DNA of 53,293 nucleotides from Candidatus Peribacteria bacterium RIFOXYB1_FULL_54_35 (lineage in GTDB: Bacteria; Patescibacteriota; Gracilibacteria; Peribacterales; Peribacteraceae): assembly GCA_001787755.1 (NCBI GenBank), contig MFYJ01000010.1, positions 1,277 through 54,569 of the forward strand, given 5' to 3'. Positions 1-11,746 of this stretch are shown here, piece after piece (within the stretch, counting starts at the first letter, position 1; the number at the start of each line of letters is the position of its first letter). The notes under the pieces are model-generated. The model worked only from the letters and a program-made list of their open reading frames with translations. It had not been told where the DNA came from and ran no database searches. Made by a program: the position numbers and the translations under genes.

Positions 1-841
1 TGGGACCGCTACTCGGACCGGAGCTGGGACCGCTACTCGGGCCGGAGCTGGGACCGCTACTCGGACCGGAGCTGGGACCGCTACTCGGGCCGGAGCTGGG
101 ACCGCTACTCGGACTACCGCTCGTTGAACCCCCGGACGAAGAACCCCCGGACGAAGAACCACCGGACGAAGAACCACCGGACGAAGAACCGCCGGAACTA
201 CTTCCTCCGCACAGACCTGCACATGAAGATTCGTCTCCAAACTCACACACACATGCTGCACAAGTATCTCCGCCGCATGCACAGGCACAGGCTCCGGTAC
301 AGTCATCTTCGGCGCAACATGCTGGTGAGCCAGCGTCGCAAGAACAGGGATCTTCCTCGCAAGGATCAGGGCAGGTATTACACTCACCGATACCATCGCA
401 ACACAAGCCCTGCGCCTCACATCCCCCGCCACACACATCTGTAGAACTATTCGAAACAGGATCTCCACAGCAGCGTGTCGCACCTGCTGGAGGATTCCCA
501 TAGTCCCATCCCTCAACGATATTTCCTGCATCATCCATGAAGCAAAAGGCGATTCCATCACAGAATCCAGGGATGCCGCCGGCACACCTCGGATCATATT
601 GCATCACTTCTTCCGTACAGAGGATACAGATGCCTCCAGCACAGTAAGGCCATCCGGCTCCGCATTCTGAGCCGTTTGGATCTGAACACGACGACGGGAT
701 TCCCTGAGCCAGCATCTGCACCCGTGCCTGCAGGTTGTCTTCCCGCTTTTCGTTGTGATACACAAGGAAGGCTGTGCATGTGAGAGCAGCGACGATAAAT
801 ACCACGCCAGGGAGCCAATGGTATTCTCGGTTGCGGAGCAT
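1..841 (-). CDS. Membrane-anchored Cys-rich protein with Ser/Gly-Pro repeats (3' end outside window)
   Basis: Read on the minus strand from the ATG at 841, the frame stays open to the window edge (280 codons). The first residues are MLRNREYHWLPG followed by a hydrophobic stretch (about 12-26, VVFIVAALTCTAFLVY), which is a signal anchor. Residues about 40-195 are very rich in cysteine (CCGD, CCAEDDC, CACACGG), as expected for a disulphide-bonded extracellular domain. From about residue 200 come five SSGG units and then repeats of PSSG up to the edge. No known family was recognised. The gene at the right edge of the window has the same architecture, so the two are probably paralogues. It is divergent from the DUF389 gene. 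A possible -10 (TATACT, 917-922) lies upstream but I see no convincing -35. The long overlapping plus-strand ORF at 124-444 is a shadow of the repeats. Confidence 0.8.
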   Translation of the reverse strand, partial: MLRNREYHWLPGVVFIVAALTCTAFLVYHNEKREDNLQARVQMLAQGIPSSCSDPNGSECGAGWPYCAGGICILCTEEVMQYDPRCAGGIPGFCDGIAFCFMDDAGNIVEGWDYGNPPAGATRCCGDPVSNSSTDVCGGGCEAQGLCCDGIGECNTCPDPCEEDPCSCDAGSPACCAEDDCTGACACACGGDTCAACVCEFGDESSCAGLCGGSSSGGSSSGGSSSGGSSSGGSSSGGSTSGSPSSGPSSGPSSGPSSGPSSGPSSGPSSGPSSGPSSGP

Positions 842-1006
842 GAAAGTATCTTGCCCCTCACCATACACTCTGTGGCATGTGGAGAGCAAAGTCACAAAAT
901 GCGTAACTATGGAAATAGTATACAATTTCATAACTGTCTGGAATGGGACTATATTTTGTCGCTTGCAGTGGCGCTGCGAAACTTGTCTGTGCTATAACTT
1001 GCCGTG

Positions 1007-1687
1007 ATGCGTTTCTTCAACCACCACAAAGAGAACATCCTCATCGCTTCCAGGCGTGAAAAGCACGATGCCGTCGTTCACCTCATAGATCAGGGGACGC
1101 TCGGGGGTGGGTACTACATGCTCCTTCTTCTTGCCATCCTCATCATTACACCAGGTCTTCTTTTAGAGAACGTGTCTGTGGTCATCGGCGGCATGATCCT
1201 TGCCCCGCTCATGGTACCGCTCCTTTCCCTCTCCCTTGCGCTGGTGGAGGGGAGCATGCAGGGGTTTCTCCGTGCCCTGAAGATCCTCATTGTATCCATC
1301 CTTATGACTCTAGGCACTTCTGCGCTTCTGACACTTTTTCTTGCACACACGTACAACGTGGTGATGTGGATTCCGGAGGAGATCAGCCCGGGCATCTACA
1401 TCTTCATAGCATTTTGCTCCGGTATCGCAGGTTCGTTTGCCTGGGTCAAGAAAGATCTCTCTGCCAGTATTGCTGGGGTGGCTGTGGCGGTTTCCCTGCT
1501 GCCGCCGCTCTGTGCGGCGGGTATAGGCTTGGCATTGTTGGAGCTCGATCTCGTACGGAATTCTCTCGTGCTCTTCGCAGCGAATCTTGTGGGTATTTGT
1601 ATGGCGGCCTTTCTCGTGTTCTGGACCCTGGGGTTTCCGGATTCTGCCAGAATAGAGGAGAAGGAGATCGAAAAAGTGGAGAGTTAA
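1007..1687 (+). CDS. DUF389 family integral membrane protein
   Basis: 226 residues with six or so hydrophobic helices. The pattern is typical of DUF389: a helix with PGLLLENVSVVIGGMILAPLM, where the small residues and the GGM-LAPLM signature are diagnostic, then a basic-acidic segment (WVKKDLSASIAG) followed by VSLLPPLCAAGIG. The family is widespread and functionally uncharacterised, with transport or stress roles suggested; I assign none. The ATG at 1007 is preceded by an in-frame GTG at 1004. A TATAAC box at 993-998 lies so close that the message would begin at about the start codon, so either could be used. The C-terminal tail (IEEKEIEKVES) is charged and cytosolic. The gene is single and runs convergently into the RNA-gene terminator at 1691-1743. 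Confidence 0.85.
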   Translation: MRFFNHHKENILIASRREKHDAVVHLIDQGTLGGGYYMLLLLAILIITPGLLLENVSVVIGGMILAPLMVPLLSLSLALVEGSMQGFLRALKILIVSILMTLGTSALLTLFLAHTYNVVMWIPEEISPGIYIFIAFCSGIAGSFAWVKKDLSASIAGVAVAVSLLPPLCAAGIGLALLELDLVRNSLVLFAANLVGICMAAFLVFWTLGFPDSARIEEKEIEKVES

Positions 1688-2183
1688 AAAACCGGGCATC
1701 TGCTCTCCAGTGACTCGCGATCACCAGGGAGCAGATGCCCGGTAGCACTCAACGGATAACTTCGAAGTTACCCAAAGAGTGGAAGCACAGCTGACCAGGC
1801 TGCATCCCCCTACCCTTTGACACGATACTGGGCGTGCCACCCTGTGTATCTTTGTGATAGCCCGAGTGCTCGGGCATCGGCTCTCCGTTTTACGCCTGGA
1901 GCGGGCTTTGTGTGTTTGTATTGTTATCCCATCCCGCCCAGCCCTTCGGCAATGCTCAGGGCGGGAGGAAGGGATCCTTCGGTGTGGTCTTGCACCGCAG
2001 GCAGGGAGGAGAGAGAAGTGACTGAAACACACGACTGAGAGACGTGCGCCTTGGACATAGTCCAAGGGAAGGACCATAACTACATGCGAATGAAGAGCCG
2101 GAGCCCCCCAGGCCATGCGACTTATGGCGTCACTTCTCACTGCTCCCTGCGTTGAGGAGAGGAGGAAGTTCTGAAAGAGCGAA
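1685..2183 (-). ncRNA. Probable structured non-coding RNA, about 500 nt, family unknown
   Basis: This 565-bp gap between DUF389 and gmk has no credible protein gene but has a good minus-strand promoter (2190-2218) and a strong minus-strand terminator (1691-1743). Between them the RNA is rich in self-complementarity. A long-range helix of 8 bp (GCAGGGAG/CTCCCTGC) continues, across a 4x4 internal loop, into 10 bp (GAGAAGTGAC/GTCACTTCTC). Local hairpins are GCCAT/ATGGC, CTTGGAC/GTCCAAG, TCCCGCCC/GGGCGGGA, GCCCGA/TCGGGC, GATAC/GTATC and GGGTAAC-TTCGAA-GTTATCC. I compared it by eye with RNase P, tmRNA, SRP and 6S RNA signatures and found none of their conserved cores. A short frame inside the RNA (about 11 codons ending CAG GCG TAA) could be coincidence. 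Confidence 0.65.
1691..1743 (-). terminator. Rho-independent terminator of the minus-strand RNA gene
   Basis: A perfect 15-bp stem (ACCGGGCATCTGCTC paired with GAGCAGATGCCCGGT) encloses a 23-nt loop. On the minus strand it is followed directly by a run of six T (plus-strand A-run 1686-1691). On the plus strand the stem has no T-run after it, so its orientation favours transcription from the right. It may also stop readthrough from DUF389. Confidence 0.85.
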
Positions 2184-2189
2184 CTTATT

Positions 2190-2218
2190 ATTGTACCACA
2201 CATGGTGGTAGCAGGCAA
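2190..2218 (-). promoter_or_regulatory. Sigma-70-type promoter of the RNA gene
   Basis: On the minus strand TTGCCT (2218-2213), a spacer of exactly 17 bp and TACAAT (2195-2190). The predicted start is near 2183. No start codon with a sensible reading frame follows, which supports a non-coding transcript. Confidence 0.65.
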
Positions 2219-3890: not shown

Positions 3891-3896
3891 CCGTTT

Positions 3897-3981
3897 GAAA
3901 GCTTTCAGCTTTCAGGAGATAGCTTTCAGTTCTTCTTTGGATTTTGGGTCTCCTGAAAGCTAGAAGCTATAAGCTGAAAGA
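3897..3981. repeat. Inverted-arm intergenic element, AGCTTTCAG word
   Basis: The left arm repeats the word AGCTTTCAG about three times. The right arm carries the complementary CTGAAAGCT word with AAGCTATAAGCTGAAAG. The two are separated by a T-rich centre (TTTGGATTTTGGGT). The arms pair as a long imperfect hairpin including TTTCAGGAGA/TCTCCTGAAA. It has the same organisation as the elements at 12443, 46339, 47769/48271, 49091 and 49800. Confidence 0.7.
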
Positions 3982-3997
3982 CGATGGGTGGCAGAAG

Positions 3998-11222: not shown

Positions 11223-11308
11223 CTTTGATGAATTGATAATCGATTATTGTTAATGGATACTATTTGCAGCATTCAGCTACTTCACAGCCCGTTCCTCTCA
11301 TTCTCACC

Positions 11309-11713
11309 ATGGCTCGCAAAAGACACCTCTCGCGCATTGCAGTGATGCAGGTACTCTTTGAACGCGAGAACCATGAACTCGATATTGAGAAGGCCCTGAT
11401 CCGCGATGCGCGGGAGTTAGGTGACATTGATGAGTCATTTGCCGTCTCACTTCTTGCCGGAGTAATGGGAAAGGAGCAGAAACTTAAGGAGATTGTGCAG
11501 GCCGATGCTCCGCAGTGGTCCCTTGACCGTATGGATCCCATTTCGCGATGTACATTGCTCATGGCGGCCTATGAACTGGTATTCGGAAATGATGCTCCTC
11601 CTGCAGTTGTCATGAACGAAGCGATAGAGATTGCCAAGGAGTATGGGACGGAAGAGAGCGGGAAATTCGTCAATGGTGTTCTCAATGCCATTGCCCACCG
11701 GAAGAAGAAGTAG
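11309..11713 (+). CDS. nusB: Transcription antitermination factor NusB
   Basis: 134 residues from the ATG at 11309. A TTG-initiated extension of 15 residues in the same frame has no family support. NusB binds boxA RNA together with S10 (NusE) in antitermination complexes on rRNA operons. The all-helical fold shows RIAVMQVLFERE at the N-terminus (canonical R--A-QALY), DRMDPISRCTLLMAAYELVF (canonical ---ER-IL--A-YEL) and VVMNEAIEIAKEYGTEESGKFVNGVLNAI (canonical V-INEAVELAK-F---S--FVNGVLD). Its partner S10 is encoded about 1.2 kb away on the other strand. It lies between the bL32-like gene and rnc. A TACTAT box at 11258-11263 may start a 40-nt leader. Confidence 0.93.
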   Translation: MARKRHLSRIAVMQVLFERENHELDIEKALIRDARELGDIDESFAVSLLAGVMGKEQKLKEIVQADAPQWSLDRMDPISRCTLLMAAYELVFGNDAPPAVVMNEAIEIAKEYGTEESGKFVNGVLNAIAHRKKK

Positions 11714-11746
11714 AGCTCATCCTCTGTCTGTCCTATACTGCCACCA

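Follow-up and report, generated by a model that had tools for sequence, protein, structure and literature searches.

A conserved non-coding RNA gene of the Peribacteraceae, with a boxA-like leader and a likely structural role

What occupies the DNA between a DUF389 gene (PF04087) and the guanylate kinase gene gmk (PF00625) in Candidatus Peribacteria bacterium RIFOXYB1_FULL_54_35? In the window (the whole 53,293-nucleotide stretch of contig MFYJ01000010.1 that was analysed), a sequence-only reading had placed here, at 1685-2218 on the minus strand, an RNA gene of ~500 nt that carries no annotation, with a promoter TTGCCT-N17-TACAAT, a hairpin followed by six T, a two-part long-range helix, at least six further hairpins and no protein frame. 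DUF389, gmk and an asparaginase gene (PF00710) flank or follow the region; the RNA gene is divergent from gmk, with only ~35 bp between its -35 box and the gmk start codon, and convergent with DUF389. No same-strand gene lies directly downstream; thus, the RNA is not the leader of another gene. Its ends are marked by the following features:

2190..2218, minus strand: sigma70-type promoter TTGCCT-N17-TACAAT with an extended TG before the -10 box (sequence; layout of -10 and boxA in homologues)
1686..2185, minus strand: inferred transcript of ~500 nt, a single non-coding RNA gene (promoter and terminator ends, fold z-score, homologues with conserved ends)
2170..2183, minus strand: boxA-like element TTCGCTCTTTCAGA with which the transcript opens; consensus in the family TTTGYTCTTTNAAA (alignment; scoring of -10 plus boxA)
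1744..1781, minus strand: extra hairpin 5' of the terminator, absent from some relatives (fold, alignment)
1686..1743, minus strand: intrinsic terminator, a GC-rich hairpin (1743-1692) followed by T6 (1691-1686) (fold; kept in relatives)

The 5' end of the transcript is inferred from the position of the -10 box. The minus strand folds at -243.2 kcal/mol, compared with -184.2 +/- 6.0 for shuffled sequences (z -9.8; none of 100 shuffles as good), and the plus strand folds less well (z -4.6). The promoter (2218-2190, with the extended TG in addition) and the hairpin with its six T are confirmed, and so is the RNA gene itself insofar as the region is non-coding and conserved; there are no transcript data. 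The absence of a protein frame fails as worded: an open frame of 165 aa with a TTG start runs from 2218 to 1721 on the same strand. It is rejected as a gene, however: its start lies within the promoter, no Pfam family matches it, and the nearest relative has it split into several frames with stops; no conserved ORF spans the RNA region. That 2218-1685 is a conserved non-coding RNA gene is well supported, although its transcription has not been shown.

How widely is this gene kept? The relatives of its gmk place the genome in Candidatus Peribacteraceae. Pieces of the RNA were recovered by BLASTN in 10 other Peribacteraceae genomes, and inspection upstream of gmk in 60 genomes of the family revealed the same divergent layout in nearly all that have enough sequence. 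Covariance model R1, which represents the 3' core, matched 45 family genomes in a 288-genome sample of the class, at one place each, and found two marginal places outside the family in the same sample; a refined model (R2) added a few further family genomes and gave no strong match when run on 20 other members of the class. The RNA is thus present at about one copy per genome through most of the Peribacteraceae, with no convincing copy elsewhere in the class. In two genomes, G065 and G067, the RNA with its promoter and boxA does not adjoin gmk, lying 2 kb off or on another contig; the RNA is thus an independent gene. About one-fifth of the family MAGs yielded no gmk at the cut-off used (E <= 1e-25), and most of these, including a single-contig genome, yielded no RNA. 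Conversely, the majority of family genomes in which the RNA is missing are without gmk too, as expected if that stretch is unassembled. Five genomes that are 96-98% complete (G030, G001, G023, G061, and G086) yielded neither gmk nor a convincing RNA; G030, which is a single contig, is the least comfortable case.

The element closest to the transcription start had escaped the sequence-only reading, as had the closing helix and the pseudoknot described below. The boxA begins 6-7 nt after the -10 box in the family, and this arrangement scores at least 17 of 20 in 43 of the 47 homologues compared, versus 0.6% of shuffles; no second site of this kind was found in the genome. The boxA of E. coli rrn operons is TGCTCTTTAACA; the 16S leader of the genome studied here offers only a weak candidate (GGCTCCTTCAC). 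Two features expected of a boxA-led untranslated transcript are met: the element stands at a fixed place after the promoter, and NusB is encoded in the genome, by a gene on the same contig (window ~11240-11716, plus strand; phmmer E 2e-20). The probes were the NusB proteins of E. coli and B. subtilis, and only the strong match was used. A small 5' hairpin (AAGUUC..GAACUU) surrounds boxA here and is not common to relatives. A function for this boxA is inferred from sequence alone, in the absence of data on NusB/S10 binding or Rho resistance.

Downstream of boxA, the RNA is organized around two long-range helices and a compact 3' domain, listed from 5' to 3':

2155..2168, minus strand: P1 5' strand, a pyrimidine-rich leader that pairs with A' and closes the whole RNA (swap test)
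2129..2150, minus strand: P2 5' arm GCAGGGAGCAGTGAGAAGTGAC, containing strand A, GCAGGGAG (alignment, pairing, A:B swap test)
2023..2128, minus strand: domain enclosed by P2, two to three hairpins that vary among relatives (fold, alignment)
2001..2022, minus strand: P2 3' arm GTCACTTCTCTCTCCTCCCTGC, containing strand B, CTCCCTGC (alignment, pairing)
1978..2000, minus strand: K1 hairpin, loop GACCA (1989-1985), probably in kissing contact with K2 (loop complementarity, both sides changing in relatives)
1909..1919, minus strand: CN1, unpaired ACAAACACACA motif (conserved in almost all homologues)
1860..1904, minus strand: hairpin region with conserved GCCGAUGCCCGAGCACUCGGGC, absent from some relatives (fold, alignment)
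1843..1857, minus strand: CN2, second ACAAACA-type motif, here ACAAAGATACACA (alignment)
1818..1842, minus strand: H-type pseudoknot, S1 GGG/CCC (1842-1840 / 1832-1830) and S2 UGGCACG/CGUGUCA (1839-1833 / 1824-1818) (homologues, covariation)
1806..1818, minus strand: A' strand AAAGGGUAGGGGG (family AAGGGUAGGGAG; AGGGAG strand), the P1 3' strand, also complementary to B (swap tests)
1785..1803, minus strand: K2 hairpin GCAGCCUGGUCAGCUGUGC, its loop UGGUC complementary to the K1 loop (loop complementarity)

This comparative anatomy rests on an alignment of 47 homologues, with swap tests also run on 31 non-redundant sequences; the alignment anchors were placed partly by hand, and shared ancestry is not fully removed from the pair statistics. 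The leader and A' pair across ~370 nt, and the two strands differ between relatives while remaining partners: CUCUCUACCC:GGGUAGGGAG in L026, CUCCCUGUCC:GGACAGGGAG in L052, and CUACACCUC:GAGGUGUAG in L072. Native leader:A' pairs outperform swapped ones (p=0.0002 for the 47 and for the 31 non-redundant sequences), by 2.5 kcal/mol in the non-redundant set; the pairing is absent in some lineages. The two-part helix claimed by the sequence-only reading also stands, as P2: 2150-2129 pairs with 2022-2001, and A:B passes the same test (p=0.0002, 31 sequences). Negative controls behave as they should for leader:A (p=0.71) and leader:pk5 (p=0.66); a third control, in which a non-partner stretch was set against A' (mid:A'), still gave p=0.007, so values near 0.01 carry little weight alone. 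By this measure, A' has two partners: native A':B also beats swapped (p=0.0002). Since P1 together with P2 excludes A':B within one molecule, the RNA may switch between folds or contact another copy of itself; this is an inference from complementarity.

The pseudoknot, just 5' of A', is present in 31 of the 47 homologues versus 4.8% of shuffles, with many compensatory changes. Its covariation score of 0.322 exceeds those of column-shuffled alignments (0.176; none of 500 as high) and of slid ones (at most 0.145), and swapping its halves between the 31 non-redundant sequences is penalized (p=0.0002). Peribacteraceae homologues show compensatory changes in swap tests and in the covariation score alike. 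The K1 and K2 loops change together (UGACCA:UGGUCA, CGACUA:UAGUCG, GCCAAC:GUUGGC, and GUGGCU:AGCCGC), and the two hairpins are jointly absent in five homologues (L020, L023, L027, L039, and L057); the automatic swap test gives p=0.0096, a value of the kind that is weak by itself, and a kissing contact is probable rather than proven. Two unpaired ACAAACACACA motifs per RNA are nearly invariant among the 47 homologues; other intergenic copies of the ACAAACA motif share no common context.

Could this be a familiar RNA in disguise? The sequence-only reading had looked for the cores of RNase P RNA, tmRNA, SRP RNA and 6S RNA without finding them, had suggested either a structured RNA specific to the lineage or a known RNA that has diverged strongly, and had proposed an Infernal search with all Rfam models. 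That search (Rfam 15) finds no family at gathering thresholds in the window, and only meaningless matches in the RNA region at E up to 10: the absence of the four cores holds, and the first alternative is the one supported. RNase P RNA (class A, RF00010), like the Peribacteraceae RNA, is structured, occurs in a single copy, spans 350-500 nt and has long-range pairings, but the Peribacteraceae RNA lacks a gathering-score match to the model, and the genome's own copy is a separate gene (contig C11, position 169490; 123 bits). Similarly, tmRNA (RF00023) is of comparable size and has a pseudoknot, but neither a tRNA-like domain nor a model match is found in the Peribacteraceae RNA (ARAGORN and Rfam negative), and the true tmRNA is encoded elsewhere (contig C13, position 51890; 101 bits). 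The RNA does not match the 6S RNA model (RF00013); a sub-threshold 6S candidate (30 bits, E 1.6e-4), which may be this lineage's own divergent 6S RNA, lies in an intergenic region at C11:109339-109493 (L146). The only opening for a divergent known RNA is SRP RNA (RF00169), which is undetected in the genome and in 40 Peribacteraceae genomes. Yet the RNA meets neither expectation for it (that it matches the model and that the genome encodes an Ffh partner): the SRP54 GTPase domain (Ffh/FtsY) is below the cut-off in 40 of 40 Peribacteraceae genomes and above it in 14 of 14 control genomes. Many CPR bacteria are known to lack SRP subunits (PMC8080830), and the whole family must target membrane proteins without a recognisable SRP. 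Because the GTPase and SRP RNA are both undetectable family-wide, the Peribacteraceae RNA is unlikely to be an SRP RNA in disguise; a motif at C11:3993 that resembles the S domain was rejected as an SRP RNA on the same ground and for want of an Rfam match. A very divergent RNase P, tmRNA, SRP or 6S RNA is all but excluded. The own-genome searches left out the final 478 bases of contig C9. A phage or plasmid element was also considered and rejected: searches of phages, plasmids, and E. coli genomes returned nothing for the RNA, and homology of 17 pattern matches in viral contigs is not supported by model R2.

If the RNA is not a known one, might it act through its neighbour, its fragments, or base-pairing with mRNAs? 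As a cis-acting partner of gmk, it would be a divergent or antisense transcript with an interfering promoter, or a folded gmk 5' region. This reading draws on the divergent position beside gmk in most of the family and on the proximity of the -35 box to the gmk start codon, but it is very unlikely: folding is much stronger on the minus strand than on the plus strand, the conserved elements are the promoter, boxA, and pseudoknot of the minus strand, located hundreds of bases away from gmk, and in G065 and G067 the gene stands away from gmk altogether. A second possibility is that the transcript is a precursor, with P2 serving as an RNase III site and one released domain being active. A 20-bp domain-enclosing helix behind a boxA leader, inside a leader-trailer-like helix, does recall rRNA processing (PMC10250234); however, conserved co-varying elements (P1, the pseudoknot, K1/K2) flank the supposed cut on both sides, so no single fragment holds the conserved core, and this explanation appears unlikely. 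A third possibility is a trans-acting antisense regulator whose unpaired ACAAACACACA stretches would be mRNA seeds. The motif occurs twice, unpaired and nearly invariant, but the genome shows no enrichment of its complement TGTGTTTGT (14 sites versus 12.8 +/- 4.7 for permuted words) or of the complement of ACAAACACA, none of the 14 sites lies just upstream of a same-strand start, and so large a fold is unusual for a seed-type sRNA; this reading, too, is very unlikely. A structural RNA is thus preferred over a gmk regulator, a processed precursor, and an antisense sRNA.

What, then, would such a structural RNA do? The reading favored here, likely though with its function inferred and no transcript data behind it, is a stand-alone, trans-acting structural RNA, either a scaffold or a homo-oligomer, made under boxA/NusB antitermination. 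Sequence and comparison support the outline: the gene has its own promoter, a boxA of the kind found in rRNA operon leaders comes first, the closed, multi-domain fold comprises P1, P2, the pseudoknot, the probable kissing loop, and two unpaired ACAAACA linkers, and a terminator of its own ends the RNA. By analogy with pre-16S rRNA, boxA would load NusB and S10 onto RNA polymerase, protecting the untranslated RNA from Rho and chaperoning its distant pairings; the polymerase carrying NusB/S10 may then hold the leader until A', synthesized ~370 nt later, anneals to it and thereby completes the closed fold, in the manner of pre-rRNA leader-trailer helices. The remaining steps are the least certain: the folded RNA may be a housekeeping scaffold that binds a protein at its ACAAACA/pseudoknot face, for which there are no binding data, or it may self-assemble as OLE, ROOL, and GOLLD do; the A':B complementarity could represent a two-fold switch or a contact between two molecules. 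A housekeeping or scaffold role is inferred solely from conservation, copy number, and structure. A bolder version, no more than possible, is that of an unknown housekeeping RNA needed by all Peribacteraceae, perhaps at the heart of a new particle or assembling from RNA alone, and switching folds (leader:A' plus A:B versus A':B) during boxA-controlled transcription.

The closest parallels are partial. In E. coli pre-16S rRNA, boxA and the leader and trailer have described roles, and the leader-trailer helix is essential (PMC10250234, PMC4807359); the Peribacteraceae RNA is similar in that it is untranslated, carries its boxA close to the 5' end and next has a leader strand whose pairing partner lies far downstream (PMC10250234, PMC4807359), but it contains no rRNA, its closing helix is only ~10 bp, it has its own terminator, and its boxA begins very near the transcription start. 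The large ornate RNAs OLE, ROOL, and GOLLD display kissing loops and long-range helices (PMC12286853). The Peribacteraceae RNA is likewise large, non-coding, and elaborately folded; it is set apart by its boxA, by the helix in which leader and A' close the RNA, by its 3' pseudoknot, and by its place beside gmk on a cellular chromosome. No homology to these RNAs is found, as no Rfam covariance model matches; an RNA-only homo-oligomer remains a possibility inferred without oligomer data. The RNA is best viewed as a new family among the large ornate bacterial RNAs, themselves a loose class; since no function is known for it, claiming a new category would exceed the data. No prior description was found in the open-access literature searched, which is weak evidence of absence. 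Large structured non-coding RNAs are rare, and known classes have opened new biology; that nearly an entire reduced-genome family (~60 genera sampled) without a detectable SRP appears to have kept this one suggests an important role. If the proposed model is true, an rRNA-style boxA and closing helix would serve a non-ribosomal RNA.

Two other features of the neighbourhood were recorded. At the window edge, an open-ended frame of 310 aa (2-931, minus strand) contains Cys-rich stretches and ends in a long SSGG/SSGP repeat tract; it likely encodes a secreted low-complexity protein. After the asparaginase gene, at 3896-3985, lie short AGCTTTCAG repeats in direct and inverted orientation.
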